A stretch of 41,522 nt of DNA from Haloterrigena salina JCM 13891 (GTDB taxonomy: Archaea > Halobacteriota > Halobacteria > Halobacteriales > Natrialbaceae): contig NZ_AOIS01000063.1 of the NCBI RefSeq assembly GCF_000337495.1, forward strand, positions 146,236 to 187,757. The letters run 5' to 3'. A model generated the notes under the pieces. That model did not search any database, was not told where the DNA came from, and was given only the letters and a program-made list of their open reading frames with translations. Shown piece after piece: positions 3,422-19,519 of the stretch. How positions within the stretch are numbered: the first letter of the stretch is position 1; every line of letters starts with the position of its first letter. The translations under genes were made by a program, and so were the position numbers.

Positions 3422-5077
3422 ATGGTGGAACGAAGCGATCTGCGGCGTTCGGATGGGATGAACTCGCCGCAGTTTCAGTCGGATGGGAACGGTGCCGATC
3501 GATCTACTGACGACGGACGAACAGATACAGGACAAACACGACGCACGGTGCTCGGTGGGCTCGTGGCTGCGGGTGCAGCTGGTCTCGGTCTGTCGACGAC
3601 CGCCGGCGCTTCGAGCGCGGCGGCCCCGTACGAGGAATACCACGACGAGTACGAGAACGTCGTCGACGTCGTCGAGGCCGGCGCGGACAACACCGGAACG
3701 GAATCGATCACGCCCGTCCTCGAGGACCTGCGCGCCGACGACACGCTGTTCGTCTTCCCGGAGGGGCGCTACTACATGGACGAGCAGTTCAGATACACGG
3801 GCTTCGAGAACATCGGCTTCGTCGGCGACGGCGCGACGCTCGTCCCGGCGGATTACCACACCTTCGACGGCCCGCAGTTTCGGCTGTTCCGTCTCGGCGT
3901 CACCTACAACCCCGGCAGTCGCCTCCGATTCGAGGGGTTCAAGGTCGATCAGACGGCCCCCGATACCGGGATCCGAGCGATCGAAGCCTACGTCTCCGAT
4001 CGGCTCGAGGTGCGCGACATCACCGTTCGCGGCCAGCACGACAGCGGGACGTGGGGTCCGGGACTGTTCAACATCACCGATCCCGACGGGACGGGACTCG
4101 TTGAGCGGTTTCGGGCACCGGACGGCGGTGCGTGGGTCGAGAACACGCCGAACGCGGGCCAGCGCTGGCGTGGCCCGATCGGGATCGAGGCCAACCAGAA
4201 CGCGGGTACCCTCGAGTTCAAACACTGCTGGCTCGGCGGCTTCCCGAACAACGGGCTCTACGCGGCGGGCAGCGAGGGACAGATCGTAGTCAGCGGCGGT
4301 CTCTACCGGAACAGTAACGGAGCGAACATCCGCGTCGGTGGCGCGAACAGCGTGATCCAGTGGCCGACGGTCGAGGTCGACGAGTCGCGACCGGAGGATC
4401 GATCCCAGCGTGGGATCCGAATCGAGAAAGGTCGAGACATCGAAATCTACGGTGCACTCGTCGATATCACCTCGCCGATGCCGACGAGCCACGCGATCTC
4501 GGTGATGAACACCTGCGAAAAGGCTCGGATCAAGAACACTGAGATTCGGATCAGCGGGTCGAGCGTCAACCACGGTATCGTCCTCTCGCCCGACTCCGGC
4601 GAGACGACGATCGCAGACACGTCGATCAGCCACGAGACCGCGGGCGGGTATCCGCTGTGGATCCGCGACAGCGACAGATCCGATCGGATCCTCGCCGAAC
4701 ACCTCACGATCTCGGGCCGATCCGGCGACGCCAGCGGCTTCCGCGACGGGATCCGTTGTGAACGGGACAACTGCCGGTTCAGCCACATCTCGGTCACCCA
4801 GGAGGGTCGTGACGGGACCGACCGGAACGCCATCGTCAACACGGGCGCGGACCTGACCGTCTACAAGAGCGAGCTGCGCGCCAGCCAGTATCCGTACCTC
4901 GACGTCGGGACCGACGCGCTGGTTCGCGACTCCGACCTCGAGTCGACGGGCGGTGAGGAAGCCGTCTGTCTCTACGCGTCCTCGGAGAACCCGACCTTCA
5001 AGAAGAATCGCCTCGCGGGCGGGATCCGCGACCTCGGCGCGAGTGGCGTCACGACCTGGGAGAACACGATCGAATAG
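3422..5077 (+). CDS. Tat-exported right-handed beta-helix protein
   Basis: The 551-residue protein starts with a twin-arginine signal: RR at 40-41 in TRRTVLGG, then a hydrophobic stretch and an Ala-rich exit near residue 65. There is no lipobox cysteine, so it is probably released or held by other contacts. The mature part begins VVDVVEAGADNTG, the usual opening of pectate-lyase-like solenoids, and continues as short beta-strand repeats rich in N, G and D. This is the fold of polysaccharide lyases, hydrolases and C5-epimerases, and no specific catalytic signature is visible. In-frame M13 (3458) is an alternative start that keeps the signal. It most likely binds or trims the polymer made by the surrounding genes. 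Confidence 0.85.
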   Translation: MVERSDLRRSDGMNSPQFQSDGNGADRSTDDGRTDTGQTRRTVLGGLVAAGAAGLGLSTTAGASSAAAPYEEYHDEYENVVDVVEAGADNTGTESITPVLEDLRADDTLFVFPEGRYYMDEQFRYTGFENIGFVGDGATLVPADYHTFDGPQFRLFRLGVTYNPGSRLRFEGFKVDQTAPDTGIRAIEAYVSDRLEVRDITVRGQHDSGTWGPGLFNITDPDGTGLVERFRAPDGGAWVENTPNAGQRWRGPIGIEANQNAGTLEFKHCWLGGFPNNGLYAAGSEGQIVVSGGLYRNSNGANIRVGGANSVIQWPTVEVDESRPEDRSQRGIRIEKGRDIEIYGALVDITSPMPTSHAISVMNTCEKARIKNTEIRISGSSVNHGIVLSPDSGETTIADTSISHETAGGYPLWIRDSDRSDRILAEHLTISGRSGDASGFRDGIRCERDNCRFSHISVTQEGRDGTDRNAIVNTGADLTVYKSELRASQYPYLDVGTDALVRDSDLESTGGEEAVCLYASSENPTFKKNRLAGGIRDLGASGVTTWENTIE

Positions 5078-5178: not shown

Positions 5179-5259
5179 GTGAGCACGTTGGATGCTGAAC
5201 GGGCGTCGGCGAGGGGAGCCGCCGACCCTCAGCACGGACGCTCCCCGGTGAGAGCGTGA
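5179..5259 (+). CDS. Possible 26-codon leader ORF coupled to the flippase gene
   Basis: The frame opens with GTG at 5179 and encodes 26 residues (begins MSTLDAERAS, ends SPVRA). Its TGA at 5257-5259 overlaps the flippase GTG at 5256-5258 as GTGA, the usual geometry of translational coupling. The TATA element at 5143-5150 fits a transcript beginning close to this GTG. The peptide resembles nothing I know and may simply serve as a leader. GC-rich DNA gives many chance frames, so this is a candidate only. Confidence 0.3.
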   Translation: MSTLDAERASARGAADPQHGRSPVRA

Positions 5260-6896
5260 ATCGAAGTATCGCGAGCGGCGTCTTCTCGGTTGTCAGTGTG
5301 AAGGTCGTCGTGCAGCTCCTCACTGCCCTCTCGACGCCGCTCCTCTATCGGTTTCTCGGCCCGTCGAAGTACGGGGACTACGCGTTCCTGCTGTCCGTGT
5401 TCGCCATCTACATGATCTTCGTGAGCTCCGGCGTCACCGACGGCGTCCGGAAGTTCCTCGCGGAGGATCGCAACGACGCGAACTGGAGCGAACACGTCGT
5501 CGGCTTCTACTTTCGGCTGGCCATCGGTCTCGCCGCTGTCGGCGCCTTCCTGTTGATACTCGCCGCCCGATTGGGAATTGTCGACCGCGCGTTCGGCGAC
5601 GGGTTCGCGATTTACTTCTACGCGCTCGCCGCCCTCGTCGTGACGGCGCAGTTTCGCGACTACGCCCGAAAGACGCTGATGGGCTTCGGTCTCGAGCGCT
5701 ACTCGGAGCCGCTGAAGATTCTCGATACGGTCGCGTTCATCGTCGTCGCCGTCCCGCTGGCGTACGTCGGGGTCGGCGTGATGGGGGTCCTCGCGGGCCA
5801 TCTGGTCGCGAGTCTGCTCGTGGCCGTCGCCGGACTGACCATCGTCAACCGCCGGGTTCCGCTGACGTGTCTCTCGAGTACGCCGACCGAACGGTTCCCG
5901 CGCAAGCAGATGCTCACGTTCAACACGATGAGCATCGTGCTCGTGTTCCTGCTGATGTCGCTGTACCACATCGACATCGTGATGCTCCAGCGGTTCCGGA
6001 CGAGCGCGGACGTGGGGAACTACAAGGCGGCGCTGACGCTGGCCGAGTTCCTCTGGTTCGTCCCGCTGGCGATCCAGACCGTCTTCGTCCACTCGACGTC
6101 GGAGCTGTGGTCCCAGAACCGCCGCCGAAAGATCTCGAAACTGGCGTCGCGGGCGACGCGGTACACGTTCCTCCTGACGGCCGTCATGGCGGTCGGGCTG
6201 GCGGCGCTGGCCGACGTCGCCGTGCCGATTTACTTCGGCGACGAAGCCGTTCCGGCGATCGAACCCCTCCTGTTGTTGCTGCCGGGGGCGCTCGGATTCG
6301 CGCTCGCACGACCGATCCTCGCGGTCTCGCAGGGCAAAGGGAACCTCCGGTATCCGATCGCGGCCACCGGCGTGGCGGCGCTGCTCAACGTCGTCCTCAA
6401 CGCCGCGCTCATTCCGCGCTACGGCATGCACGGTGCGGCCGTCGCGACCAGTATCGGCTACGGAACGATGTTCGTCTGTCACTGCTGGAGCGCCCGTCGC
6501 GTCGGTTTCGATCCACTCGCCGACGCGCGACTCGCTCGAGCGGCGTTGACGACCGTCCTCGCGGCCGGTCCCATCATCGCCCTCGCGACGGTAATCACGA
6601 ATCCATGGCTCGCGCTCGCGGTGGTCCCGCCGGTCGGGTTCGTGATCTTCGTCGGCTTCGCGCTGCTAGTCGGCGCGCTGGACTCGTCCGAACCGTTCGA
6701 GATCCTCTCGGTGTTTCCCGATCCGATCGGCTCCCGGGCGGCCGCGATACAGGTGTCGTTCGAGGGCGAGGGTGACGAGGACGGCGAAACGCGAAGTTGG
6801 CTTCAGAGCCTGCTGTTCGTCGCCGGGCTGTCGCTGTTCGTTTCCGGACTCGCGCTGGGCATTCTCGGCACCGGCATCCAGAGTCTCCTTCCCTGA
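5256..6896 (+). CDS. Polysaccharide/oligosaccharide flippase (MOP superfamily, Wzx/AglR-like)
   Basis: The 546-residue integral membrane protein has about twelve to fourteen hydrophobic helices. Its N-terminal layout (GVFSVVSVKVVVQLL..., then RFLGPSKYGDYAFLLSVFAIY) is typical of Wzx/RfbX-type flippases. Such proteins move lipid-linked glycans from the cytoplasmic to the outer leaflet, and haloarchaeal relatives include AglR of N-glycosylation. The GTG at 5256 overlaps the stop of the small upstream frame. An acidic loop precedes the last helix pair at residues about 495-512. It is followed by convergent glycosyltransferase genes, so it is the likely exporter for this locus. Whether the cargo is an N-glycan or an exopolysaccharide unit cannot be told. 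Confidence 0.9.
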   Translation: MNRSIASGVFSVVSVKVVVQLLTALSTPLLYRFLGPSKYGDYAFLLSVFAIYMIFVSSGVTDGVRKFLAEDRNDANWSEHVVGFYFRLAIGLAAVGAFLLILAARLGIVDRAFGDGFAIYFYALAALVVTAQFRDYARKTLMGFGLERYSEPLKILDTVAFIVVAVPLAYVGVGVMGVLAGHLVASLLVAVAGLTIVNRRVPLTCLSSTPTERFPRKQMLTFNTMSIVLVFLLMSLYHIDIVMLQRFRTSADVGNYKAALTLAEFLWFVPLAIQTVFVHSTSELWSQNRRRKISKLASRATRYTFLLTAVMAVGLAALADVAVPIYFGDEAVPAIEPLLLLLPGALGFALARPILAVSQGKGNLRYPIAATGVAALLNVVLNAALIPRYGMHGAAVATSIGYGTMFVCHCWSARRVGFDPLADARLARAALTTVLAAGPIIALATVITNPWLALAVVPPVGFVIFVGFALLVGALDSSEPFEILSVFPDPIGSRAAAIQVSFEGEGDEDGETRSWLQSLLFVAGLSLFVSGLALGILGTGIQSLLP

Positions 6897-7159: not shown

Positions 7160-8215
7160 CTAGCGGACCTGGCGCTCGAGGTGTTCGCTCTCGGCCATGT
7201 CGAACACCATCGCGAACAGGAGGAACGCGATGCCGGCGACGAGCAGGAACACGGTCGTCGACCCCTGCACCGACGGACCGACCGTCGCGAGCGTCGCGAA
7301 CAGCGTCACGACGGCGGCGAGGATGCCGGTCGCGGCCAGTCCGGCGCCGACGAGGTAGAAGAACGCCAGCGGGTGGAAATCGAGCACGAGGTACTTCGTC
7401 TTCAGCCGCCACAGGAAGTTCCGCAGGAGCATCGTCGACACCTTCGGGATGTACTCCGAGTACGTGATGCTCGACTCCTCGTCGCCGTAGACGGCCGGCA
7501 TAGCCACGTCGGCAACGCGCATCCCGTGGACGTTCAGCTTCACTAAGAGGTCGTTACAGTAGCCGTAGTACTCGTAGAGGTTCTCCAAGTCGATCGCCTC
7601 GAGGGCGTCGCCGGAGACGGCCGTGTAGCCGTTCTGGGGATCCATCGTCTTCCAGTAGCCGGAGGCGATCTTGGTCAGGAACGAGAGGATCGCGTTCCCG
7701 ACGAACCGAAACCGCGGCATCGCCGCGCGGTACTCCCGCGAGAGGAGGCGGTTCCCCTTCGCGTAGTCGGCCTCGTTCTCGACGAGCGGGTCGAGCAGCC
7801 GGGGCATCTGCGAGAGGTCCATCTGCCCGTCGGCGTCGACCGTCACGGTCGCGTCCACGCCGTCGGCGCGCGCGGCGAGATAACCGGTTTTGATCGCTCC
7901 GCCGGCGCCGCGGTTCTCGCGGTGGCGGATCGGGACGACCCGTCCGATCGCGTCCCGGACGGACGCCCGTTCGGTCAGCATGGACGCGCCGCCGTCGGTC
8001 ACGAGCGCCGCGTCGTCGGCCGCGTCGCGTCCCGCGTTCGCATTGGCGTCGTCGCGGGCCGCCTCGAGGATCTCGTCCCAGGTCCCGTCGGTCGAGCGGT
8101 CGTCGATGGCGTAGATCCGATCGACGTAGTCGGGCATCTCGCGGATCACGTCGCCGACGAACCCCTCCTCGTCGTACGCCGGCACCACGACGCCGATCGA
8201 GGCACCGCGGTACAT
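7160..8215 (-). CDS. GT2 glycosyltransferase with C-terminal membrane anchor (dolichyl-phosphate sugar synthase-like)
   Basis: The 351-residue protein starts with the GT-A fold of family GT2: IGVVVPAYDEE at the N-terminus, then DDRSTDGT and the metal-binding DADGQMD. RGAGGAIKTGY follows the pattern of dolichyl-phosphate glucose/mannose synthases. Two hydrophobic helices near residues 270-340 anchor it in the membrane. The donor would be a nucleotide sugar and the acceptor probably a polyprenyl phosphate. Its ATG shares one base with the stop of the upstream deacetylase-like gene (TGATG at 8213-8217), so the two are co-translated. It is convergent with the flippase gene. Confidence 0.88.
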   Translation of the reverse strand: MYRGASIGVVVPAYDEEGFVGDVIREMPDYVDRIYAIDDRSTDGTWDEILEAARDDANANAGRDAADDAALVTDGGASMLTERASVRDAIGRVVPIRHRENRGAGGAIKTGYLAARADGVDATVTVDADGQMDLSQMPRLLDPLVENEADYAKGNRLLSREYRAAMPRFRFVGNAILSFLTKIASGYWKTMDPQNGYTAVSGDALEAIDLENLYEYYGYCNDLLVKLNVHGMRVADVAMPAVYGDEESSITYSEYIPKVSTMLLRNFLWRLKTKYLVLDFHPLAFFYLVGAGLAATGILAAVVTLFATLATVGPSVQGSTTVFLLVAGIAFLLFAMVFDMAESEHLERQVR

Positions 8216-9474
8216 CAGTACCCCTCCAGCAGGTCGGACGGGGTAACGACGTCGACGTCGGCGGCATCGACGTGTGCGAGCAGGTCCGCGAACGCCGACT
8301 CCGAGATCCCGTCGTCACCGATGTGTTCGAAGTGCAGGACCGCCAACTGGCCGTATTCGGCCGCGTAGTCGACGTAGTCCCGCGTCGTCTGGCCGGCGGT
8401 TCCCGAGAAGAACCCGACGTCGTGGGAGTCCGTCAGCGGGAGCCCGTTCGGGGCGCTGCCGAACCGGAACGCCGTCTCGTGGTGCTCCCGGACGAGGTCG
8501 AGCGTCTCCGATCCGAGGATGTTCCGCGGCGTCATGAAGTGTCTCGCGCCGTCCTCGAAGCCACGGCTCTCGAGGAAGCGCTTCGTCCGCTGAATGCGTT
8601 CCGCCTGCTGCTCGCGGGGGAACTCGTGGAGGAACCGCGCGCCGGTCCGGGGGCGTGCGATGGCCTCCCAGCCGGCGTTGCCCAGCGTCTCGAGCTGCCC
8701 CATCGAGAGGCGACCGGACTCACCGAGGGCCTCCGGGATGACGGCCTCGACGCCCGCGAACTCGAACGCGTCCAGGTACTTGAGCGCGCGTTTGTAGTGA
8801 TCCTCGAGTGTGGCGTCGAACAGGAGCATCACTGCGCCGCGGTCGGGGCGGTCGACCGTTCGGAGGTCGTCGATCCGACAGTCGATCGGGCCGGTCTGGT
8901 CGCCTCGGCGGCGGGCGGTCAGTCGGATCTCGCGGACGTCGCTCAGGTCCGGCGTTCCGTCGACGCCAATCGTCCCGAAGTCGACGCGCACCCAGCGATC
9001 GGTCGGGCCGGTCAGCGTCCGGTGCATCCGCACGGCGCTGCGCGCGTCGGGCGCGTACAGCTCGAGCGTCAGTCGCAACTGGTCGCGCTCCGAGAAGGAG
9101 ACCGCCAGCGAGAGGTTCCGGTCACGGAGGTCCAGTCCGTCGGCGACGGACCGATAGATCGACGCGGCCTCGGTGCCCTCGTCGGCCGTTAGCCGCGCCG
9201 ACTGCGAGTCCGCGTAGGGGTCGTCCGCGGTGGCTTCGAGGTCGCCGGCGTCGATCATTGCCGACCAGTCGTCGAGGGCTTCGAAGTCGTCGATCGATTC
9301 ACCTGGCAGGTCGAGTCCGTCGGTCTCGGCGCCGCCACCGTTTTCCTCCTGTTCCTGTGACGGCGTCGACTCGTCATCGTCGTCGCCGCGCAGGCTCGAG
9401 AGACAGCCGGCGAGCCCGATCGCTCCGGCGGTGCCGATCGTCGTCACGAACGTTCGTCGGTTCCGGTGGGTCAT
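8215..9474 (-). CDS. Tat lipoprotein with degenerate NodB-type polysaccharide deacetylase domain
   Basis: The 419-residue protein begins with RR at 6-7, a short hydrophobic core and lipobox LAGC with C24 as lipid-modified residue. An acidic linker leads to a beta-rich domain at about 60-205, then a NodB-like C-terminal domain. It is clearly paralogous to the protein at 13565-14902, sharing the DDLRT..P..G join and domain order. The catalytic residues are damaged: the usual DDG reads DAT (D220 kept, metal ligand replaced by A221), and the HSxxH metal motif reads ARFLH (only H283 kept). It is therefore probably not a metal-dependent deacetylase, and may bind glycan or modulate its paralogue. 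The pairing with a GT2 gene suggests a role in polymer export or tailoring. Confidence 0.82.
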   Translation of the reverse strand: MTHRNRRTFVTTIGTAGAIGLAGCLSSLRGDDDDESTPSQEQEENGGGAETDGLDLPGESIDDFEALDDWSAMIDAGDLEATADDPYADSQSARLTADEGTEAASIYRSVADGLDLRDRNLSLAVSFSERDQLRLTLELYAPDARSAVRMHRTLTGPTDRWVRVDFGTIGVDGTPDLSDVREIRLTARRRGDQTGPIDCRIDDLRTVDRPDRGAVMLLFDATLEDHYKRALKYLDAFEFAGVEAVIPEALGESGRLSMGQLETLGNAGWEAIARPRTGARFLHEFPREQQAERIQRTKRFLESRGFEDGARHFMTPRNILGSETLDLVREHHETAFRFGSAPNGLPLTDSHDVGFFSGTAGQTTRDYVDYAAEYGQLAVLHFEHIGDDGISESAFADLLAHVDAADVDVVTPSDLLEGY

Positions 9475-9669
9475 TGGCTGCGGCGACGAACCGTTCTACC
9501 TTTCTTATACAGCTATTAGCCCACGAGCGACGTCAGATCAGGGGTCGCGACCGGAGCCGCGCTCCGCGTCGGTCGCAGCCGGCAATCGATTCGAGTCGAT
9601 CCCTCGCGGCGTCGTCCCCGGCGTTTAGCGACGCGATAATAATGGCTCGACCGTTCGGAGGTGGGAAAA
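9475..9669. promoter_or_regulatory. Divergent promoter region
   Basis: On the minus strand TATAA (9505-9509) lies about 33 bp before the lipoprotein start, which suggests a very short leader. On the plus strand GATAATAA near 9635-9642 serves the GT2 gene at 9670. That gene also has a strong Shine-Dalgarno-like GGAGGTG at 9657-9663, six bases before its ATG. Confidence 0.5.
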
Positions 9670-10668
9670 ATGCCACGAGTCAGCGTCGTGATCCCGACCT
9701 ACGACAGAGCCGAGACGCTTCCGCGCGCGATCGATAGTGCGCTCGCGCAGACGATCGACGACCTCGAGGTGGTCGTCGTCGACGACGGTTCGACCGATGA
9801 GACGCCGTCCGTGCTCGCCGACTACGACGATCCCCGGGTCCGTCCCGTCGTCCACGCAACCAACCAGGGGGCCAACGTGGCCCGGAACACCGGCATCGAG
9901 CACGCCCGCGGCGAGTACGTGGCCTTCCTCGACTCCGACGACGAGTGGCGCCCCGAGAAACTCGAGCGCCAGCTCGCCGCCCTCGAGGGGCGATCCGAGG
10001 AGTGGGTCGGCGTCTACTGCGACTCGACCTACGAACTGTCGGGGGCGAACGACCGCCTCCGCGGAGTCGCCGCGTCCGCGCTCGCGCGGTCGGACGACGA
10101 ACCCGTCCGGGAGGGTGGCGAGGAACTGATCGGGCCGATCCTGTCCGACGAGGTGCAGCCGGACGCCGGCTCGACCCTACTCGTCCGGACCGACGTGGTC
10201 CGCGAGATCGGCGGTTTCGACGAGGAACTCGACCGGTTCCAGGACCCCGAATTCTGCCTGCGAGTGCTCAAGGCTGGCAAGCTCGCGTACGTCGACGAAC
10301 CACTGGTCGTCCGCGAGGAGACGGGCCAGCCGCCGGCGGCCGTCATCCGAACGGCCAGCGAGCAGTACCTTTCGATCTACGAGGACGAAGTCGAACGGTT
10401 CGAAGCCGAGGGGTACGAGATCCGCGCCGCCCACCGGCTCGTCATCGCGAAGGCCTACCTCTCCGAGGGGCGTCTCCTCCGCGGGCTGTGGTACCTGCGC
10501 GGCGCCGCCGCGTCCGCTCGGCAGTACCCCGGCCTCTGCTGGGCCGCCGGGAGCGGTGTCCGACGGCGTCCGCTCCCGATCGTCGCAACGGTCGCGCTCG
10601 TCTTCGGCGTCCTCGCCGTGACGGCACTCGAGCGGACTGCGATCGTCCGTCGCGTACTGACCGAATAG
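9670..10668 (+). CDS. GT2 family glycosyltransferase
   Basis: The 332-residue enzyme has a textbook GT2 GT-A domain: RVSVVIPTYDRA at the N-terminus, VVVDDGSTDETP for nucleotide binding, NQGANVARNTGI, and FLDSDDEW carrying the DxD-type metal site. The C-terminal part has one hydrophobic helix at about 300-320, so it is likely attached to the inner face of the membrane. The in-frame GTG at 9661 is rejected as start because it lies inside the Shine-Dalgarno-like GGAGGTG, which is correctly spaced for the ATG at 9670. The gene is divergent from the lipoprotein/GT2 pair and followed by the ATP-grasp gene on the same strand. The transferred sugar cannot be predicted. Confidence 0.92.
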   Translation: MPRVSVVIPTYDRAETLPRAIDSALAQTIDDLEVVVVDDGSTDETPSVLADYDDPRVRPVVHATNQGANVARNTGIEHARGEYVAFLDSDDEWRPEKLERQLAALEGRSEEWVGVYCDSTYELSGANDRLRGVAASALARSDDEPVREGGEELIGPILSDEVQPDAGSTLLVRTDVVREIGGFDEELDRFQDPEFCLRVLKAGKLAYVDEPLVVREETGQPPAAVIRTASEQYLSIYEDEVERFEAEGYEIRAAHRLVIAKAYLSEGRLLRGLWYLRGAAASARQYPGLCWAAGSGVRRRPLPIVATVALVFGVLAVTALERTAIVRRVLTE

Positions 10669-10804
10669 CCGTCACCGTATCTCCGCTTCTCAAGCGGCGA
10701 GCCCGCCCGATTTGCACGATTTCTGTTGGTCATATCGTCCGCGCTCTGACTGCAACTGTCTTGGTAGTTCGATAACTAACAGGATCCGCGTGGCAGGCTC
10801 ATTC

Positions 10805-11971
10805 GTGAACGTCAGAACGCTCTACCACACGGCCAGGGCGGTGCAGGGACTCGTCGGGTCCGAGTACGAGTCGGACGTCTCGCGACCGCTTCGCCGACGC
10901 CTCTGGCTCTGGCGGCGCGGCTTCCTGAGCAGATCCGACGCGGTCTACGACCTCGACTCGGAGAACTACCGCGACTACGTGAGCGACTACGAGCGGTTCG
11001 TGGGCACGAAACAGATCAACGGAACGTGGTCGGTGGCCCTCTCGAACAAGCTCCTCTTTCACCGGTTCATGCAGTCGTTCGACGCCGAGCAGATGACCGT
11101 CTACGGGCTGCTCCGCGACGGGACCTACCACCCCGTCGACGGCCGACGCGGCCGCGAGATGGCCGACGGGGGGCCGACGGTCCCGGAGCCGATCGGCATC
11201 GGTGGACCGGCGTCCGAGCCGGCCCGGTCGTCGCCGCGGACGGAGACGAGAAACGCCGCCCAGCGAGTCGTCGATCGACTCGAGGTCGAGGGGCGGCTGG
11301 TCCTCAAGTGGGTCCACGGCGGCGGCGGAAACAACGTTATGCTGTGTTCGCGCGCCGACGATGGCTACCGGGTCGACGGCGACCACTACGCCGAGGCGGA
11401 GTTCCGATCGCTGGTCGCCGACCTCGAGGACTACCTCGTCTGCGAGTTCGTCGACCAAGGAACGTTCCCGGCCGCGCTGTACCCGGCGACGCCGAACACG
11501 ATCCGGCTGATCACGATGTACGACGACGTCCTCGACGAACCGTTCATCGCCGCGGCGATCCAGCGGATCGGCACGACGGACTCCGTGCCGCTGGACAACT
11601 TCACGCAGGGCGGCCTCTCCGCGTCGATCGACCGCAGGACGGGCGAACTCGGCCCGGGCGCGCAACCCCCCGACAGCGACGGCGACGGCGACGGTGTCGA
11701 GTGGCACTCGGAGCACCCGGATACCGGAATGGCAATCGAGGGGAAACAGATCCCCGGCTGGCAGCGGATTCGATCGCGGGTCCTCGAGATGGCCGACGCG
11801 TGCTCGTACCTCCCGTACGTCGGCTGGGACGTTATCGTAACCGACGACGACGGCGGCTTCACCGTCATCGAAGCCAACAGCTATCCCGGCCTCAAATCCA
11901 TTCAGGTCCACGGACCCTTGCTGACTGACGACCGCATCCGGCGGTTCTACGAGCAACACGGTGTTCGGTAA
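10805..11971 (+). CDS. Sugar-transfer-associated ATP-grasp enzyme
   Basis: The 388-residue protein matches the ATP-grasp type found in polysaccharide loci (ATPgrasp_ST family). An N-terminal helical part (1-95) contains NKLLFHRFM. The ATP-binding lysine is K168 in LVLKWVHGGGGNNV, with a glycine loop at 172-175. CEFVDQG, NTIRLITM and the metal-binding IEANSYPG near the C-terminus complete the active site. ATP-grasp enzymes form an acyl-phosphate and join it to an amine or thiol, so this one may attach an amino acid or similar group to a sugar acid (inference). The GTG at 10805 is chosen because the conserved part begins right after it and the AT-rich GATAACTAA (about 10770-10778) sits about 30 bp before. 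A TTG/GTG start further upstream would add a Cys-rich, unlikely segment. Confidence 0.82.
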   Translation: MNVRTLYHTARAVQGLVGSEYESDVSRPLRRRLWLWRRGFLSRSDAVYDLDSENYRDYVSDYERFVGTKQINGTWSVALSNKLLFHRFMQSFDAEQMTVYGLLRDGTYHPVDGRRGREMADGGPTVPEPIGIGGPASEPARSSPRTETRNAAQRVVDRLEVEGRLVLKWVHGGGGNNVMLCSRADDGYRVDGDHYAEAEFRSLVADLEDYLVCEFVDQGTFPAALYPATPNTIRLITMYDDVLDEPFIAAAIQRIGTTDSVPLDNFTQGGLSASIDRRTGELGPGAQPPDSDGDGDGVEWHSEHPDTGMAIEGKQIPGWQRIRSRVLEMADACSYLPYVGWDVIVTDDDGGFTVIEANSYPGLKSIQVHGPLLTDDRIRRFYEQHGVR

Positions 11972-12121
11972 CGGCGTCGAACGGGGCGCAACTACCTCGG
12001 GTCTTCCGGATGGATTCGCTCTCTACAACCGTTTCATGACGGTTTCGAAAGAAGAAAAAGAATATCTGCTGACGTTATTCTCGCGATAGTAAACACATCC
12101 TATTCCGAATCGGGCGGTGGA

Positions 12122-13465
12122 ATGCAGCGGAATGCGCTTTCACGACGATCGGTACTGTCGTTCGCGGGCGCCTGCGCGATCGCTGGCGCCGGCGCGACGG
12201 CAGTCGATGGGGCACAGGCAGACGGAACATCACGGGAGTCCTTCACGATTCGCAAGGGAACGGCCGAGGAGACGACGGTCTACGTCACGAGCGCGGACGT
12301 CGACGGCCCAACGGTCGTCGTCATCGGCGGCGTCCACGGCAACGAGGTCGCGGGCTATACGGCGACGGGTTCGATCGCCGACTGGGAGATCGGCGCCGGA
12401 ACCCTCGTTACCATCCCCAAAGCGAACGCGGCCGCGGTCGAGAACGGGACGCGGACCGCCGACGACGGCGTCGACCTCAATCGACAATTCCTGGAGGGGC
12501 GCGAGCCGGAGACCGACCTCGCCAGGGCGCTCTGGAGTGTTGTCGTCGAGTACGATCCGGACGTTGTGATCGACCTCCACGAGTCGACGGGCATCTACGC
12601 AAACGATCCCGTCGACGGCGTCGGGCAGGCGATCTTCCACTCCGACGGCGAAGCCGCTGCGGCCGCGGCCGATGCGGCCGAGTACGTCACCCGGAACTAC
12701 ATCGACGACCAGGCGCTCGCGTTTCAGACCGGGCCGTTCTCCAGTCCCGACAATGACCCGAGGGGACTGCTCGTCCACAAGGCCGCTCGCGACCTCGGCG
12801 CCGACGCGTTCCTCGCGGAGACGCTCTCGACCGGCGTCCCCCTCGAGACCCGCGTGCAGTGGCACTCGGCGATCGTCGAGCGGCTCCTGACGGACGATCT
12901 CCGACTCGAGGCAGCCGATGCGAACTCCGGTGCCGACGAGAGCGAGTCGGACGACAGTGCTGACGAGAGCGAGTCGGACGACAGTGCTGACGAGAGCGAG
13001 TCGGACGACAGTGCTGACGAGAGCGAGTCGGACGATGGTGCCGACGAGAGCGAGTCGGGCGACAGTGCTGACGAGAGCGAGTCGGACGATGGTGCCGACG
13101 AGAGCGAGTCGGACGACGGTGCCAACGAGAACGAGACGGACGACAGTGCCGACGAGAACGAGTCCGCCGAAGACGAGACGGCGGCGGACGCGCCCGTCGC
13201 GTCCATTACCGCCTGTCCCCGGAACTTCATCGGGTCGGCGCTCGAGTCCGGGCAGACGGTTCAACTCGACGCGTCGGGATCCGAGGCGCGCGGCGGCGAG
13301 ATCGTCCGTTACGAGTGGGACGTCGGCCAGACGGCGCAGTTCGACAAGACCGGTGAGACGATCACGGTGACGGTCGGTACGAACGTCCGCGACACGATCG
13401 TGTTGCGCGTGACTACCGCTGACGGTGCGACCGACACCGACTCGATCACGCTCTCGACGAACTGA
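12122..13465 (+). CDS. Tat-exported M14-type zinc hydrolase (aspartoacylase/succinylglutamate desuccinylase-like) with acidic repeats and PKD domain
   Basis: The 447-residue protein has a twin-arginine signal (RR at 8-9, Ala/Gly-rich core to about 33). Residues 40-258 are an M14-family domain: H72 and E75 in GGVHGNE and H153 in DLHES are the zinc ligands, DLNR (118-121) binds substrate carboxylate, and E233 in AFLAETLS is the probable catalytic glutamate. Such domains cleave amide bonds, as carboxypeptidases or N-acyl amino acid deacylases do. Residues 270-350 are a nine-unit acidic repeat and residues about 360-447 a PKD domain of the type that binds surfaces or carbohydrate. It is therefore an extracellular amidohydrolase on a long flexible arm. 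Its place between the ATP-grasp, deacetylase and asparagine-synthetase-like genes suggests it removes or trims amide-linked groups on the glycan (inference). Confidence 0.85.
   Translation: MQRNALSRRSVLSFAGACAIAGAGATAVDGAQADGTSRESFTIRKGTAEETTVYVTSADVDGPTVVVIGGVHGNEVAGYTATGSIADWEIGAGTLVTIPKANAAAVENGTRTADDGVDLNRQFLEGREPETDLARALWSVVVEYDPDVVIDLHESTGIYANDPVDGVGQAIFHSDGEAAAAAADAAEYVTRNYIDDQALAFQTGPFSSPDNDPRGLLVHKAARDLGADAFLAETLSTGVPLETRVQWHSAIVERLLTDDLRLEAADANSGADESESDDSADESESDDSADESESDDSADESESDDGADESESGDSADESESDDGADESESDDGANENETDDSADENESAEDETAADAPVASITACPRNFIGSALESGQTVQLDASGSEARGGEIVRYEWDVGQTAQFDKTGETITVTVGTNVRDTIVLRVTTADGATDTDSITLSTN
12929..13171 (+). repeat. Nine tandem 27-bp units inside the M14-PKD gene
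   Basis: Nine in-frame copies of a 27-nt unit encode (S/G)ADESESDD and variants. Units two to four are almost identical at DNA level and the last two diverge (NENET, DENES). Copy number could change by recombination or slippage without a frameshift. The product is a highly acidic, disordered spacer. Confidence 0.93.
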
Positions 13466-13564
13466 TCGGTCCGGAACTCGCGCTACTGCGGGCTTCCTCT
13501 CCGGACGAGGGATGCGATAGAACCGTTCGTTACCGCAAGAATGGAATCAACAGACGACGCGGAC

Positions 13565-14902
13565 TCAGTAGAACTGTTCGGTCCGGTGCTTCCAGAGCTC
13601 GTCGAACGTGATAACCTCGACGTTCGCGTTGTCTATGTGTTCGAGCAGCTCCGCGTAGTTGGATTCGGGCATCGTGTTCTGTTCGGAGAACGCGTGGAAG
13701 TTCAGAATCGTACACTGGCGGTGCTGGGCGGCGCGATTGACGCACTGTTTCGCGATGTCCAGATCGTGGCCGATCGTCCGCGGTAACGCCAGCGGGTCGA
13801 AGCCGTAGACGCTGGTCGTGTTGATGTTACCGGCCTGGTTGAAGCCGCCGCAGTAGTGGTAGTCGGACGCAATCTCGAGGCTCGCCTTATCGTAGCTGTT
13901 GTTCGGGTAGATGATGTAGTCTGCACCCTCGAACCCCTTGTTGATGTACCACTGCTTGTCGTGCTTGAAGCGGTTCCGGATCCGCTCTTCGTCGTCGAGT
14001 TCGTGGAGCGGGCTGTGGGTCCCGTGGACGACGATCTGGTCGCCAGCGTCCTGACGTTCCTTAAGCTCCGCAGCCGTTACGCTGCCACCGTCGCTTCGTT
14101 CGACCCAGCGCGGTACCGGGGCCTGAACGGCCGGGAACCCGTACTCGTCGTGCATCGGCGCGGCCGTCTCGTAATAGTCGCGGGTGCCGTCGTCCCAGGT
14201 CAGCATGACGTACCCCTTTTCGGGCTTGTCGTGGGTCCGCAGGTCGTCGATCCAGACCTCGGCCTGGTCCATGGTGTGCAAAACCTGAATCTCGAGGCGA
14301 TCCAGGGCGTCGAGCGAGGGCTCGTAGTCGCTCTGTGAGAAGACGCCCGGACTCGAGCGGAACCAGGCGACGTCCGGGCTCCGGCAGGTGATCTCCCGCA
14401 GCGAGTACGCTTTCCAGCCGCCGAACTGGTCGACCAGCCGCAGGTTGATCGTGATGCTTTGTGGAGTCGTCGTTCGGATCGCAAACGAGAAGTCCGTATC
14501 GGTGAAGTCCTTGTCCGACACGTCCAGTTGGGCGACGACGTTTTGCTCGCCGTTCGACTCCAGTTTGAAGCTCTGGTCGCCGGTGAAGACGGTTTCCTGG
14601 TCGGCGCTTCCCGACCCACGGGTGACCTCCCACTCGGAGAGGTCGCTGAAGTCGTCGAGCGACTCGCCGGGCTGGCTGTACTTCTCGCGGCTGTTGTACT
14701 CCGTCTCGAGCGACGGAACGCCGTCGGCTAGCGCCGCCGCCTGTCCGGACGATTCGTCGTCCGTCTCTTCTTCCTCCTCCGAGTCGTCGTCCGATCCGCC
14801 GAGGACCGAACTGAGCTGATCGGTACATCCCGCGAGGCCGGCGGCCGCGGCTGCACTCGAGAGGGCGAGAACTCGTCGGCGGGTTGGTCGCTGCTGTGAC
14901 AT
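13565..14902 (-). CDS. Tat lipoprotein polysaccharide deacetylase (NodB domain, metal site intact)
   Basis: The 445-residue protein has RRR at 8-10, lipobox LAGC with lipidated C26, an acidic linker, a beta-sandwich-like domain (about 80-220) and a C-terminal NodB domain. The catalytic set is complete: D237-D238 in TWDDG (base and metal ligand) and H296-S-P-L-H300 matching HSxxH. Family members (carbohydrate esterase family 4) remove N-acetyl groups from amino-sugar polymers, and lipid-anchored ones such as PgaB act during export. It would work outside the cell on N-acetylhexosamine residues, which agrees with the amino-sugar genes further right. It is the active counterpart of the degenerate paralogue at 8215-9474. 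It is convergent with the M14 gene and divergent from the asparagine-synthetase-like gene. Confidence 0.88.
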   Translation of the reverse strand: MSQQRPTRRRVLALSSAAAAAGLAGCTDQLSSVLGGSDDDSEEEEETDDESSGQAAALADGVPSLETEYNSREKYSQPGESLDDFSDLSEWEVTRGSGSADQETVFTGDQSFKLESNGEQNVVAQLDVSDKDFTDTDFSFAIRTTTPQSITINLRLVDQFGGWKAYSLREITCRSPDVAWFRSSPGVFSQSDYEPSLDALDRLEIQVLHTMDQAEVWIDDLRTHDKPEKGYVMLTWDDGTRDYYETAAPMHDEYGFPAVQAPVPRWVERSDGGSVTAAELKERQDAGDQIVVHGTHSPLHELDDEERIRNRFKHDKQWYINKGFEGADYIIYPNNSYDKASLEIASDYHYCGGFNQAGNINTTSVYGFDPLALPRTIGHDLDIAKQCVNRAAQHRQCTILNFHAFSEQNTMPESNYAELLEHIDNANVEVITFDELWKHRTEQFY

Positions 14903-15150
14903 TGTCGACCCGAAGTTACTGACAGTCAGCCCATTATTATGGATCCGATAGGCCGAAATCTCCGGTTGCCTAGATCGCCGCTATACAGACGTTTCAGCCC
15001 TTAACAATGGCATAGTAATTGTCGTCTCGGTAGAAGAGAGGAGAGCCGCGTGCGCGGTCGAGGCGATGTGGACGAGCGAACCGCTGGTCGACCGCCGATC
15101 GGTCGACTCGGCGTCGTCCCCTCGATCGTGGGTCGCGACGGTGGTCTTCG
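14903..15150. promoter_or_regulatory. Divergent intergenic region with TATA candidates
   Basis: The minus-strand ATAATAATGG at 14931-14940 lies about 33 bp before the deacetylase start and is a good TATA box. On the plus strand AT-rich motifs occur near 15001-15020, which would leave a leader of over 100 nt before the ATG at 15151. Confidence 0.4.
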
Positions 15151-16842
15151 ATGAACAGGGAACTCTTCGGCGTATTCGGCGACAGAGAGACGTTCGAGCG
15201 ACACAGAGCGAGCGACGAATTCGATCGGGTACTGACGGGGCCGTTCGTCACCGTCGGCATCAGAGACGACGCGCTCGGCGCGCCCGGTTGGACCGCCAGC
15301 TACGCGGACGGCGACGACCGGTGTGTCGTCTGGGGCGAAGCGTACGTCCCGGGCGACGAGTCAAACGCCGCGCGCTGGCTGCTCGAGCGCTACAAGAACG
15401 TGGGTCGCGATGCCTTGGACTTGCTCAACGGATCGTATCTAGCCCTCGTCGACGCCGACAGGGGCGACACGTTCGTCGCGACGGATCCCGTCCGGTCTCG
15501 CGAGTGCTTCTACACCGACGCGCCGGGAACTCGCGTCTTCGGAACCGACGCCGCCGAAGTCGGGCGCACGGTCCCCGATCCGACGGTTAATCGAGACGGC
15601 GTTCTCGAATTCCTCCACCTCGGCGTGGCCCTCGGCGAGAAGACCGCCGTCTCGGAACTGCGTCGACTGCCCATCGACAGCGTGCTCGAGGCCGACTCGA
15701 TCGAACCTCTCAAGCGGTTCGTCTACCGTTCGGAGTCGTTCGATTACGTCGGCGAGCTCGCCGAGCGCCTCGAGCGGGCGTTCCGGCGGCGTTCGATGCT
15801 ACCCGGAACCAAAGGTCTCCTCCTGTCGGCGGGCTACGACTCGCGGGTCCTTCTCACGGGGATTCCCGAGATCGAGCGGAGTTTCACCGTCGGCGCACCG
15901 GACGCCCGGGAAGTCGAGGTCGCGGGTCAGCTCGCCGACCAGTACGGGGCGACACACACGGCGTTTCCGCCGGACGAACGGTATCTCCGTCCCGACGAAT
16001 CGAAGGTCCGCTACTCGCAGGGAATCAAGGAATCACTGCACATCCACCACGCCGGTTACGCCGACGAGATGGCCGTCGACACGATGTATCACGGACTGCT
16101 CTGTGATACGTTCCTTCGCGGTCACTTCACCGCCGAGAAGACCGTCGACGTCCTCGACAAGCGCATTCCGACCGGTCGACTCGAATCCGATCCCGATCCG
16201 GTCGAGGAACTGCTCGCGACCTTCGGCTACAGCCGAGATGCCAGTCGCGACCTCGCCGAACGAACGTCGTTCGGCGTCGATCCGGAGACGTTCGTCAGGG
16301 ACGCGATCGCCGACGAACTCGACGCACAGGACGCCCGCGCGGACTCCGTCCAGAACGCGCTGACCTGCGTCGGGATTTCGAACCAGCCCTCGATGCCGTT
16401 TCACACGCACTTGGCCGACCAGTTCGTGGCGTCGTTTCCCGCCATCGACCGCGAGCTACTCGACTGGCACCTTCGAGCGCCGCCGGAACACCGCACGACG
16501 GAGACGTTCCTCGAGGCCTGTACGCGGATCGACGACGACATCCTGCGACACAGACCGCCGGACCGGCCACACGACGAAACGATTCTCAACGAGGTCGAAC
16601 GCTTCGTCCGTCGGAAGACGCCGCTTCTCGAGTCGTTCCAGCCGCCGTGGCCCGATCGCCGGACGCTGTTCGATCGTTACGAGTTCGACCAGCGGTACCT
16701 GGACGACCTCGAGCACGTCCACGACCTGCCGGTCAGACACAAGCTGCGGCTCGTCGATCTCCGAACGTGGCTCGAGTGCTGGACCGCGCCGTCCGAGGCG
16801 TCGCTTCCGTGGCTCGCCCCGCCGGAATTCGCGACTGTTTGA
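15151..16842 (+). CDS. Asparagine-synthetase-like protein lacking the glutaminase cysteine
   Basis: The 563-residue protein has the two-domain plan of AsnB. An Ntn-hydrolase-like N-terminal half (1-190) includes LLNGSYLALVD and DPVRSRECFY. A PP-loop ATP-pyrophosphatase half carries LLSAGYDSR at 224-232, a variant of the SGGxDS loop. The protein begins MNR rather than MC, so the cysteine needed to hydrolyse glutamine is absent and this half cannot supply ammonia in the usual way. The family activates carboxylates with ATP and forms amides; asparagine-synthase-like proteins also occur in glycan and natural-product clusters. In this position it may amidate a uronic acid or amino acid on the polymer using a free amine (inference). 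ATG at 15151 gives the first conserved residues (ELFGVFG) at the right distance. Confidence 0.83.
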   Translation: MNRELFGVFGDRETFERHRASDEFDRVLTGPFVTVGIRDDALGAPGWTASYADGDDRCVVWGEAYVPGDESNAARWLLERYKNVGRDALDLLNGSYLALVDADRGDTFVATDPVRSRECFYTDAPGTRVFGTDAAEVGRTVPDPTVNRDGVLEFLHLGVALGEKTAVSELRRLPIDSVLEADSIEPLKRFVYRSESFDYVGELAERLERAFRRRSMLPGTKGLLLSAGYDSRVLLTGIPEIERSFTVGAPDAREVEVAGQLADQYGATHTAFPPDERYLRPDESKVRYSQGIKESLHIHHAGYADEMAVDTMYHGLLCDTFLRGHFTAEKTVDVLDKRIPTGRLESDPDPVEELLATFGYSRDASRDLAERTSFGVDPETFVRDAIADELDAQDARADSVQNALTCVGISNQPSMPFHTHLADQFVASFPAIDRELLDWHLRAPPEHRTTETFLEACTRIDDDILRHRPPDRPHDETILNEVERFVRRKTPLLESFQPPWPDRRTLFDRYEFDQRYLDDLEHVHDLPVRHKLRLVDLRTWLECWTAPSEASLPWLAPPEFATV

Positions 16843-16954
16843 CTGTTGGCACAGATTTCGGCCGCTGGTACCCTCACTTTTAACGACTCGAACAGTCGTT
16901 TCCACTCATTTAGGCCTACGACAAATCGTTTGCCCAGCTCAACCGTAACAATAC

Positions 16955-16961
16955 TTATATA
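16955..16961 (+). promoter_or_regulatory. TATA box for a leaderless gene
   Basis: TTATATA is centred 26 bp before the ATG at 16984, the spacing expected if transcription starts at the start codon. This supports the short form of the protein over an in-frame extension from 16846. Confidence 0.7.
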
Positions 16962-16983
16962 CCACGCAAGACTACCGCGGAAT

Positions 16984-17487
16984 ATGCGTCTGACGCCGTC
17001 TTGGTTGTTCGCGACACCGTCGGAGCCGTCCGAAGACGGGCCCGACGACGCCGAAGCCGAGACGGTTTCGGGTGTCACCATCTACCGGGACCCATCGACC
17101 GACCTCTCGAACGCCGACTCCGCGACCGAGTTTGTCCCGGACTCCAATACCGAATTGTTGTCCGTTCTGGACGGGATGGAGACGCCCGTCACCGTCGACG
17201 AAGTCGCCGACGAACTGATCCATCCGGCTCGGCCCTCAGTGGAAACGTGGGCGGCCGTGCACGAGCAACTCCACCAGTATCGCCTTCCGGAACTCGACGC
17301 GACGGGCCACGTCGAATTCGACGCGGAACAGGGGATCGTCGAGCGTCGAACAGTCCGATCGGACGCCGCTAACAGGAACGGCTCGAACGGGCTGGGACTC
17401 CGGAGACTGGTTCGACTCGCGGGACTCACAGCACTGGTTACGTCGGGGCTGGCGGTCGCGCTCCTCGCGGTCGTACTGCTCGTCTGA
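16984..17487 (+). CDS. Membrane-anchored winged-helix protein (DUF7344-like)
   Basis: The 167-residue protein has an acidic N-terminus, a winged-helix-like region at about 60-118 (ELLSVLDGMETPVTVDEVADEL ... YRLPELDATGHVEFD) resembling the haloarchaeal DUF7344 group, and a single C-terminal hydrophobic helix at about 142-165. It therefore looks like a DNA-binding domain tethered to the inner face of the membrane. Start choice rests on the TATA box 26 bp upstream. It is convergent with a second member of the same group at 17534-18136, and both sit between two blocks of glycan genes, so they may regulate them (inference). Confidence 0.75.
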   Translation: MRLTPSWLFATPSEPSEDGPDDAEAETVSGVTIYRDPSTDLSNADSATEFVPDSNTELLSVLDGMETPVTVDEVADELIHPARPSVETWAAVHEQLHQYRLPELDATGHVEFDAEQGIVERRTVRSDAANRNGSNGLGLRRLVRLAGLTALVTSGLAVALLAVVLLV

Positions 17488-17533
17488 ACCGACTCGAGAA
17501 ACACGCCGTATCGCACTGGGGCGACGTCAGATA

Positions 17534-18136
17534 TTACTCAAGAAGCCGTTTGATCGTCGATACCGTAAACAGCAGTAGGATACAGGCGCTCAGTGCGATT
17601 CCCGAGAGGAACGTCGTGAACGGCAGTTCGAGCACCGCGCCGAGCAGCAGCGCGAAGCCGAGGACCGTCGAGCCGACGTAGTAATCGTCCAGCCCCGCGT
17701 TGGACTCGTCCCCGTCGCTCGAGTCCGTCTCAGGGGCGTCCTGCAGGTACTGATCAACCATATCTGCGCGCGGTTGCCGTTCGACGATGCCGCGGTTCTT
17801 CTGGTAGTCGATGAGTCCCGCTTCGTCGAGCTTCGAGAGGTGAGACTGGTAGAGCGGAATGTAGACGCGCTGGCGTTGTTTCGACGTGAGTTCCTCGACA
17901 GTCGTATCGTGTTCCCACGCCGCGACCTGCTCAGCGATATCTCGCATACGCACGGGCTCGGTAGTGTCGCGAAGGTACCTGAGAACCAGCCGACGGCGTT
18001 CGTTTTGCAGGAGGTGGAAGATCTCGTCCTTAGAGAGGTCCTCCTCGTCAGCGGGCCGCTCGTCAGCGGACGAGCGGTCCGCATCGGCCGTCTCCTCCGT
18101 AGTATCTCCTTCGGAGCTGATATGTGCTGCGTTCAT
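17534..18136 (-). CDS. Membrane-anchored winged-helix regulator (DUF7344-like, two membrane spans)
   Basis: The 200-residue protein has an acidic, disordered N-terminus, then a clear winged-helix domain at about 35-120: KDEIFHLLQNERRRLVLRYL, a central helix set, RVYIPLYQSHLSKLDEAGLIDY and the wing region GIVE. Two adjacent hydrophobic helices at about 150-193 place the domain on the cytoplasmic face of the membrane. The LLQNERRR opening is the signature of this haloarchaeal regulator group. A TATA-like TTTATTA (18166-18172, minus strand) lies about 33 bp before the start. Confidence 0.85.
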   Translation of the reverse strand: MNAAHISSEGDTTEETADADRSSADERPADEEDLSKDEIFHLLQNERRRLVLRYLRDTTEPVRMRDIAEQVAAWEHDTTVEELTSKQRQRVYIPLYQSHLSKLDEAGLIDYQKNRGIVERQPRADMVDQYLQDAPETDSSDGDESNAGLDDYYVGSTVLGFALLLGAVLELPFTTFLSGIALSACILLLFTVSTIKRLLE

Positions 18137-18526: not shown

Positions 18527-19519
18527 ATGAGCGACAGTCAATGGTGGTTCCTCGACCTGGCAGCGGTGATCGCGTTCACCGGCGCCTTCACGTTCGGCAT
18601 TGTTTCCGGAGTCGGCGGCGTGATACGAACCGCGATAGCACTCCCGATGATTCTCTGTTTTCCCGGGTATGCGCTCGTCTCGATCCTGTTTCCGTCCGAA
18701 CCGAGCGACGAGTACCAGTCGTTCGATGCGCTGAAAAGCGGGCTCGAGACACCGCGTCTGGTAACCGGCGGACTCGAGTCTGTCGAACGGTTCGTCCTGT
18801 CGGTCGTCTTCAGTATCGCCCTCGTTCCGACGGTCACCCTTTTCGCGTCCGTTACCCCACGGGGTATCACCCCGGAAACGGTGCTCCTCGGGCTTGCATC
18901 GCTGACCGTCGTGCTGTCGCTGCTCGCGGTCGTGTCTCGCTACCGGTGTCCGGCGGAGCAACGGTTCGCGCCGTCGCTCTCGATCGGATCGCTGTTCTTC
19001 TCCCGGGAGCGACCGAACGTCTACGAGCGAGTCAATCCGCGGCCGTACAACGTCGCGATCGTCATCGGACTGGTAGTACTGCTCGCGAGCGCCGGCTTCG
19101 CTGCCACCAACCCGCCACAGGGCGAGAGCTTCACCGAACTGTCGGTCCAAACCGAGAACGTCACGGGCGACACTGACACGATGTACGAGTCGACGTACGC
19201 CGCCGGCGAGACCGAGCCGTTGACGGTGTCGATCACGAATCAAGAGAACGCCGAGCGCGACTACACGACGGTCGTCCTGCTCGAGCGAATCGAACAGGGT
19301 GACGGTGACGAAGTGAACGTTACGGACCGCGACGAACTCGCTCGAGCATCCGCGACGGTCGCTGACGGAGAGACACGCGAGCAGTCGCTCGAAATCACGC
19401 CGACGATGTCCGGCGACGACCTTCGGATCACGGTGTTGCTCTACCAGGGGGAGGCGCCGTCGGAGCCCGCAGCAGGAGACGCCTACCGAACGATGCACCT
19501 CCCGGTCGTGGTTGAGTAG
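18527..19519 (+). CDS. DUF1616 family membrane protein
   Basis: The 330-residue protein matches the DUF1616 architecture: hydrophobic helices at about 8-28, 34-54, 90-110, 115-135 and 180-198, with IALPMILCFPGYALVSILFP near the N-terminus being characteristic. The last 120 residues form an extracellular beta-rich domain (ETEPLTVSITNQE onward) like those that bind partner proteins or glycans at the surface. The family is common in archaeal surface-glycan loci but its biochemical role is unknown. The ATG at 18527 lies about 30 bp after a TATA-like GATAATAAA, so the mRNA is probably leaderless or nearly so. Confidence 0.82.
   Translation: MSDSQWWFLDLAAVIAFTGAFTFGIVSGVGGVIRTAIALPMILCFPGYALVSILFPSEPSDEYQSFDALKSGLETPRLVTGGLESVERFVLSVVFSIALVPTVTLFASVTPRGITPETVLLGLASLTVVLSLLAVVSRYRCPAEQRFAPSLSIGSLFFSRERPNVYERVNPRPYNVAIVIGLVVLLASAGFAATNPPQGESFTELSVQTENVTGDTDTMYESTYAAGETEPLTVSITNQENAERDYTTVVLLERIEQGDGDEVNVTDRDELARASATVADGETREQSLEITPTMSGDDLRITVLLYQGEAPSEPAAGDAYRTMHLPVVVE

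Follow-up and report, generated by a model that had tools for sequence, protein, structure and literature searches.

The 41,522-nt stretch of Haloterrigena salina JCM 13891 DNA analyzed here (the window, to whose positions all coordinates refer) carries a conserved gene cluster for which acidic aminosugar polymer locus is a well-supported name. The locus occupies about 3.4–29.4 kb; its genes probably serve to build and modify an acidic amino-sugar polysaccharide, either at the surface or as exopolysaccharide (EPS), with amidation by the asparagine-synthetase-fold protein ASNB at its core and amino-acyl addition and trimming as optional steps. The original prediction had put amide editing at the center of the system; this reading is plausible for an optional layer that accompanies a core step by the Cys-less ASNB, not for the defining feature of the locus. 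In profile searches against Pfam and NCBIfam, judged by the cut-off of each model, every gene type named in that prediction was present (ATP-grasp, M14, NodB, flippase and glycosyltransferases), the AsnB-like protein being recognized through its fold. The sugar dehydrogenase (24556–26037) and glmS (27327–29354) lie to the right, as had been stated; the flippase is also present, but it sits at 5256–6896, left of the predicted 7160–16842 range. The central genes are as follows.

9661–10668, + strand: GT2b, a GT2 glycosyltransferase (Glycos_transf_2, 2.4e-38)
10805–11971, + strand: ATPg, an ATP-grasp ligase of the sugar-transfer associated type, predicted to form amide bonds, optional insert (PF14397, 1.7e-30)
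12122–13465, + strand: M14, a predicted Tat-exported zinc amidase or carboxypeptidase of M14/AstE-AspA/M99 type, optional insert (PF24827, PF17033 and PKD)
13565–14902, − strand: NODB, a Tat/lipobox lipoprotein with one beta-sandwich domain and one NodB (CE4) deacetylase domain (PF01522, 1.5e-12, over cut-off)
15151–16842, + strand: ASNB, an asparagine-synthetase-fold PP-loop enzyme without the glutaminase cysteine, core gene (fold comparison)

ATPg, M14, ASNB and NODB served as queries against 121 genomes from the same family; the orthologue thresholds were set by us, and the presence lists were compiled by hand. ASNB orthologues were found in 80 of the 121 genomes. All genomes with ATPg (55/55) or M14 (54/54) are also ASNB-positive, and NODB is shared with ASNB in 72 of the 73 genomes that contain it. 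Labels were shuffled 20,000 times within genera, with incomplete genomes excluded. No shuffle reached the observed overlap with ASNB for NODB or M14 (0/20,000 each); for ATPg, the p value is 1.5e-4. Nine genera contain both ASNB-positive and ASNB-negative genomes; among the negative ones, ATPg and M14 are absent altogether and NODB occurs once. The co-occurrence check suggested with the original prediction therefore came out in its favor, with ATPg and M14 confined to ASNB-positive genomes and NODB accompanying ASNB in 72.

The other genes of the locus are listed below.

3422–5077, + strand: right-handed beta-helix protein with predicted Tat export, pectate lyase/epimerase-like, conserved neighbor (Beta_helix, 2.9e-5, below cut-off)
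5256–6896, + strand: Wzx/MurJ-type polysaccharide flippase, conserved in position (Polysacc_synt_3, 1.5e-15; MurJ, 6e-11)
7160–8215, − strand: GT2a, a polyprenyl-phosphate glycosyltransferase-like GT2 with C-terminal membrane segments (Glycos_transf_2, 1.2e-16)
8215–9474, − strand: NODd, a lipoprotein with degenerate NodB fold (Pfam NodB at E 0.049 only, below cut-off)
16846–17487, + strand: small membrane protein with partial DUF7344 domain, conserved neighbor (PF24035, 6.6e-6, just below cut-off)
17534–18136, − strand: DUF7344 membrane protein of winged helix-turn-helix (wHTH) type, probable regulator, conserved (PF24035, 1.8e-30)
18527–19519, + strand: DUF1616 membrane protein, conserved, present in the Haloferax locus too (PF07760, 6.4e-83)
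20504–22504, − strand: GT-C (PMT_2-like) membrane protein, candidate polymerase or transferase, at matching position in relatives (PMT_2, E 0.003, below cut-off)
22494–23528, − strand: GT4 glycosyltransferase (Glycos_transf_1, 1.7e-13)
23528–24562, − strand: DUF354 glycosyltransferase of GT-B, MurG/WecB-like type (PF04007, 8.9e-13)
24556–26037, − strand: nucleotide-sugar 6-dehydrogenase (TIGR03026, 392 bits, over cut-off)
26300–26950, + strand: wHTH regulator of DUF7343/MarR type (PF24034, 4.8e-27)
27327–29354, + strand: glmS, glucosamine-6-phosphate synthase (TIGR01135, 711 bits, over cut-off)

All window genes were mapped onto each of 60 regions and 59 further loci (about 120). The common order is flippase (+), GT2a (−), NODd (−), GT2b (+), optional ATPg (+), optional M14 (+), NODB (−), ASNB (+), DUF7344 (−), DUF1616 (+), GT-C (−), GT4 (−), DUF354 (−), dehydrogenase (−) and DUF7343 (+). 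The full order is common to most Natrialbaceae genera, among them Natrinema, Natronorubrum, Natrialba, Natronolimnohabitans, Natronosalvus, Halobiforma and Natrarchaeobius; Natronococcus, Halostagnicola, Halostella, Saliphagus and Haloprofundus retain most of it. GT2b is among the most constant genes and occurs in nearly every core cluster compared. This arrangement recurs in most of the loci compared, beyond chance, which confirms the cluster as a real, conserved haloarchaeal system.

Some neighbors vary between genera. Just before GT2b, between NODd and GT2b, several genera carry a second beta-helix protein (L076, L080, L081, L082, L088, L089 and L131), which is 41–45% identical to the product of 3422–5077 and is possibly a polymer lyase or C5-epimerase. 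The DUF7344 and DUF7343 winged-helix proteins (16846–18136 and 26300–26950) accompany the locus almost everywhere, and they are probable regulators of the polymer.

The sequence matches of ASNB are weak (PF00733, 7.8e-4; TIGR01536, 6.6e-11, below cut-off). An AlphaFold2 (AF2) model, built with 50 diverse sequences, has a predicted local distance difference test (pLDDT) score of 91.3. Residues 3–547 of the model align with TsnB9 (Z 25.0), Escherichia coli AsnB (Z 23.8) and beta-lactam synthetase (Z 23.5), which confirms, at the level of the model, a whole two-domain asparagine-synthetase fold. Like the glutamine-dependent asparagine synthetase, beta-lactam synthetase and TsnB9 family (Z 23–25), ASNB contains a PP-loop of SGGxDS type; different from the glutamine-dependent members, it has no Cys nucleophile, as is the case for beta-lactam synthetase, and with 12–16% identity it forms a separate haloarchaeal family. 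None of the 54 ASNB orthologues compared has a Cys in the first 8 residues, and N2 is present in most; the PP-loop motif S-x-G-x-DSR and D319 are invariant. The predicted AsnB-like protein is thus borne out by fold and PP-loop, but it is not a glutamine-dependent amidotransferase. Owing to the invariant PP-loop and D319 and to the absent N-terminal Cys, ASNB probably adenylates a carboxylate without hydrolyzing glutamine. Beta-lactam synthetase and the lasso cyclases are also Cys-less, and by analogy they show that ammonia is not the only amine that the asparagine-synthetase fold can join.

ASNB directly follows glmS in Haloarcula, Halomicroarcula, Halorientalis, Halobacterium, Halorussus, Halovivax and Halococcaceae. 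We considered from this adjacency that GlmS might feed ammonia to ASNB; no evidence was found, and it is kept as a thought only. In Halogranum, Halocatena and Haloglomus, the place of glmS directly upstream of ASNB is taken by a second AsnB-like protein, which starts with MVGLCG and is about 20–23% identical; second AsnB-like genes were seen at about 8.0–9.95 kb in L143, L145, L147, L148 and L152.

ATPg matches PF14397 (ATPgrasp_ST) with 106.6 bits against a cut-off of 31.4. K166, E354 and N356 are present in 30 of 30 aligned rows and, together with E212 and D340, all are conserved in 29–30 of the 30. Translation probably starts at the GTG at 10805, whereas the mechanical open reading frame starts at a TTG. 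When ATPg was searched against the PDB by sequence, only spurious RecA matches came back. M14 matches the AstE/AspA catalytic domain (PF24827, 2.4e-10, 40.7 bits against a cut-off of 25) and Peptidase_M99 (8.7e-7), and its C-terminal PKD domain follows an acidic linker. The zinc ligands H72, E75 and H153, the carboxylate-site residues R111 and N120-R121, and the general base E233 are invariant in 31 of 31 sequences. The nearest solved relatives, Mlr6093, DoeB and Csd4, are acyl-amino-acid hydrolases and, in the case of Csd4, a peptidoglycan carboxypeptidase; judged by these relatives, cleavage of an amide that bears a free carboxylate would fit M14. One M14 paralogue, 58% identical, lies at G000:C11:180424-181296 with its frame broken by a TGA; broken copies at similar identity occur in G049, G085 and G054. 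The M14 and NODB translations have twin-arginine motifs, and NODB and NODd share the lipobox LAGC.

The predicted NodB deacetylase is present at 13565–14902; however, the locus encodes a second NodB-type lipoprotein, NODd (8215–9474), which has no metal site. Of 37 NODd orthologues, 36 have Gly, Ala or Ser in place of the second Asp, and in nearly all the H-x-x-x-H motif has become RPRTG. Given the lost metal ligands and a Pfam E value of only 0.049, NODd is most likely a pseudoenzyme, probably a pseudo-deacetylase or a glycan-binding protein. In NODB, D237, D238, H293, H296 and H403 are invariant in 48 orthologues. Residues 60–438 of NODB match the turret head protein of the virus HFTV1 (8qpg, E 2.9e-22; 24.5% identity over 84% by tblastn), so that the carbohydrate-binding-like and NodB domains of NODB are homologous to that capsid protein over the whole length. 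The turret head protein has been described as glycan-binding and zinc deacetylase-like, acting on host glycans (PMC12494034). The host of HFTV1, Haloferax gibbonsii LR2-5 (PMC7921747), carries an ASNB locus. The homologue on the capsid turrets suggests that viruses also use such enzymes on host glycans, and that NODB-type enzymes have been exchanged between hosts and viruses.

This use of NodB-type enzymes on host glycans (PMC12494034) would also suit M14 and NODB as enzymes of defense or remodeling against viruses or neighbors rather than of polymer maturation. We consider this very improbable, since NODB is fixed beside ASNB in most of the 72 genomes, across the family and with identical catalytic residues, a pattern that fits a role in maturation.

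As in flippase-dependent (Wzx/Wzy-like) polysaccharide loci, one locus holds a flippase, glycosyltransferases and genes for nucleotide-sugar supply. The best specific model for the dehydrogenase is TviB (UDP-GlcNAc C6 dehydrogenase, 349 bits), ahead of the archaeal UDP-ManNAc dehydrogenase (245) and AglM (185), all below their own cut-offs. Together, glmS, the TviB-like dehydrogenase and the deacetylase point to a polymer with hexosamine and hexosaminuronic acid. The polymer structure, the substrates, the direction of reactions and the localization of each step are predicted from the genes. In the proposed pathway, GlmS and the UDP-aminosugar dehydrogenase would supply hexosamine and hexosaminuronic acid, from which the GT2, GT4 and DUF354 transferases would build a lipid-linked unit inside the cell. 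ASNB, as the core step, would activate a carboxylate, probably that of a uronic acid, as acyl-adenylate and join it to ammonia or to an amine from a source other than a glutaminase of its own. Where a strain has ATPg, the sugar would additionally receive an amide-linked amino acid inside the cell. The Wzx/MurJ-type flippase would export the lipid-linked unit, which the GT-C protein may polymerize or attach; this protein is the only polymerase candidate in the locus, with its PMT_2 match sub-threshold. Outside the membrane, NODB would strip N-acetyl groups from hexosamine, NODd would probably bind the polymer and, in strains with M14, the zinc enzyme would trim amide-linked acyl or amino-acyl groups.

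Alternatively, the locus could be a protein glycosylation pathway for an S-layer or pilin glycan, with these enzymes decorating a protein-bound glycan. GT2a resembles AglJ-type polyprenyl-phosphate transferases, and the GT-C protein could transfer to protein; AglJ is the best NCBIfam match of GT2a, at 78 bits against a cut-off of 325. AglB and an AglJ that passes the cut-off are found elsewhere in the genome, on contigs C31 and C36, and neither is in the window, which argues against N-glycosylation by the locus. The exported deacetylase and the glycan-processing enzymes also suit a polymer better. Such haloarchaeal loci can first be annotated as agl, as was that of AepG in Haloarcula hispanica, yet AepG, although similar-looking, turned out to have its role in exopolysaccharide (PMC9943897). 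Taken together, we regard protein glycosylation as improbable.

A separate version of the gene set was found in one stretch on the plasmids pHGLR2 of H. gibbonsii LR2-5 and pHM505 (= pHME505) of Haloferax mediterranei. It contains DUF1616, a hexapeptide acyltransferase, two nucleotide-sugar dehydrogenases, DUF354, an ATP-grasp ligase, GT39, glmS, ASNB, glmU and an AstE/AspA-type M14. In H. mediterranei, the AsnB-like gene is E6P09_RS17200, the ATP-grasp gene RS17185 and the M14 gene RS17210. The Haloferax M14 is 40% identical to the window M14 over the catalytic domain and is fused to a different N-terminal domain; this domain (L180 and L181) is thioredoxin/DsbA-like by a weak Pfam match and stands in place of the C-terminal PKD. 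The ATP-grasp ligase is of another family, ATPgrasp_Ter/PylC-like, and is not orthologous to ATPg. Because the functional set recurs there with a non-orthologous ATP-grasp, there is good evidence that the ligase, AsnB-like and M14 activities belong together. In Halococcaceae, ASNB is present in 10 of 10 genomes, adjacent to glmS where the flank was read. In an order-level sample, 7 Halococcaceae genomes have at least three ATPgrasp_ST matches, some of which are split pieces of one gene; one genome (L167 9297–16001, G166) contains four complete ATPgrasp_ST genes clustered with one MurJ-like flippase and one AMP-binding enzyme. Likely Halococcus genomes and genus g34 (L167, L168 and L171) have three to four ATPgrasp_ST genes clustered next to a flippase.

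Several observations weigh against the amide-editing interpretation of the window locus. Between GT2b and NODB, both ATPg and M14 are present in 21 loci, ATPg only in 5, M14 only in 28 and neither in 15 (Fisher 0.19). Some ATPg copies adjoin dnaK/dnaJ or other unrelated genes. By alignment, ASNB has no obvious counterpart of the catalytic Lys found in AsnB and beta-lactam synthetase, and NODB has the spacing H-x-x-H, different from the usual H-x-x-x-H of NodB enzymes. Substrates are predicted for every enzyme, and we infer that the amides would sit at uronic carboxyls or hexosamine amines. In the published analyses of Haloterrigena EPS consulted, amide-linked amino acid is not reported, and for the EPS of H. 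turkmenica genes are not assigned.

ATPg and M14 as an obligate writer/eraser pair were rejected, owing to their near-independent assortment in the slot. Nor did 'installed inside, trimmed outside' hold as the defining feature, as many loci are without ATPg, without M14 or without both. Remnants of ATPg in G065 and G071 indicate that the gene has been lost there; the near-independent slot states and these remnants mark GT2b, NODB and ASNB as the constant core, to which ATPg and M14 add optional layers. As for copies outside the locus, one ATPg orthologue (L099 4406–10771, genus g9, Natrinema-like) directly follows grpE-dnaK-dnaJ outside any glycan locus, and another (L098) lies beside a PAPS-reductase-like gene and a tricarboxylate transporter. 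A second glycan locus around such copies elsewhere in Natrinema and Natronococcus was rejected for these two, whose neighbors are unrelated.

AsnB-type proteins are presumed to make uronamides in bacterial O-antigen loci. The window locus could likewise make an acidic aminosugar polymer in which ASNB only forms uronamides from free ammonia, with ATPg and M14 acting elsewhere, on a peptide or on scavenged amino-acid conjugates, and with no amino-acyl editing. The constancy of ASNB beside variable ATPg and M14, the 28 clusters with M14 but without ATPg, and the ATPg copies outside glycan loci all agree with such a scheme. Against it, ATPg and M14 orthologues never occur without ASNB among the 121 genomes, the Haloferax locus holds both an ATP-grasp and an M14, and the Halococcaceae ATPgrasp_ST genes stand beside a flippase. 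We therefore consider the uronamide-only scheme rather unlikely and prefer the polymer with optional amino-acyl editing. H. mediterranei is a well-known exopolysaccharide producer and is genetically tractable. With a conserved core and optional modifying genes in many haloarchaeal genera and in this species, the amide question is directly testable.

A ligase of ATP-grasp type is also tied to an acidic uronic polymer in the teichuronopeptide of alkaliphilic Bacillus, in which TupA is the ATP-grasp and amino acids are amide-linked; the ATP-grasp family, the organism and the cell wall are different from those of the window locus. To our knowledge, no genes are known for the amide bridges of the Halococcus wall. 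In the sulfated heteropolysaccharide wall of Halococcus morrhuae, N-glycyl-glucosaminyl bridges occur together with glucosamine and with uronic and gulosaminuronic acids (PMC4187196). Like the predicted polymer, this wall combines hexosamine, uronic and aminouronic acid and an amide-linked amino acid, here glycine, and the Halococcaceae have both ASNB and ATPgrasp_ST genes; different from the loose coat expected of the Natrialbaceae locus, the Halococcus wall is rigid. The clustered Halococcaceae ATPgrasp_ST genes are candidates for making the glycine-glucosamine bridges. This precedent makes the amide idea more plausible and partly reduces its chemical novelty: our literature search found no haloarchaeal description of the gene set among the papers searched, but the statement that no such system is known is too strong for the chemistry (PMC4187196). 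An archaeal amide writer/eraser layer on an acidic aminosugar polymer can be proposed only tentatively, and we hold it doubtful; a glutaminase-dead AsnB-fold enzyme and an ATP-grasp ligase would link amino acids or sugars by amides, possibly including cross-links between uronic carboxyls and glucosamine amines, M14 would trim them outside, and the same families would make the Halococcus N-glycyl-glucosamine bridges.

Another haloarchaeal comparison is the acidic EPS of H. hispanica, in which AepG, like GT2a, is a polyprenyl-phosphate GT2 and the product is a uronic-acid EPS of a haloarchaeon; AsnB-like, ATP-grasp and deacetylase genes are not reported for that cluster (PMC9943897). One genome of the same genus as the window, G028, also carries the locus. 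For the genus, the EPS of Haloterrigena turkmenica is reported with Glc:GlcN:GlcA:Gal:GalN of 1:0.65:0.24:0.22:0.02 (PMC6950075). The sugars of the predicted amino-uronic polymer are in line with this EPS, which contains both glucosamine and glucuronic acid (PMC6950075).

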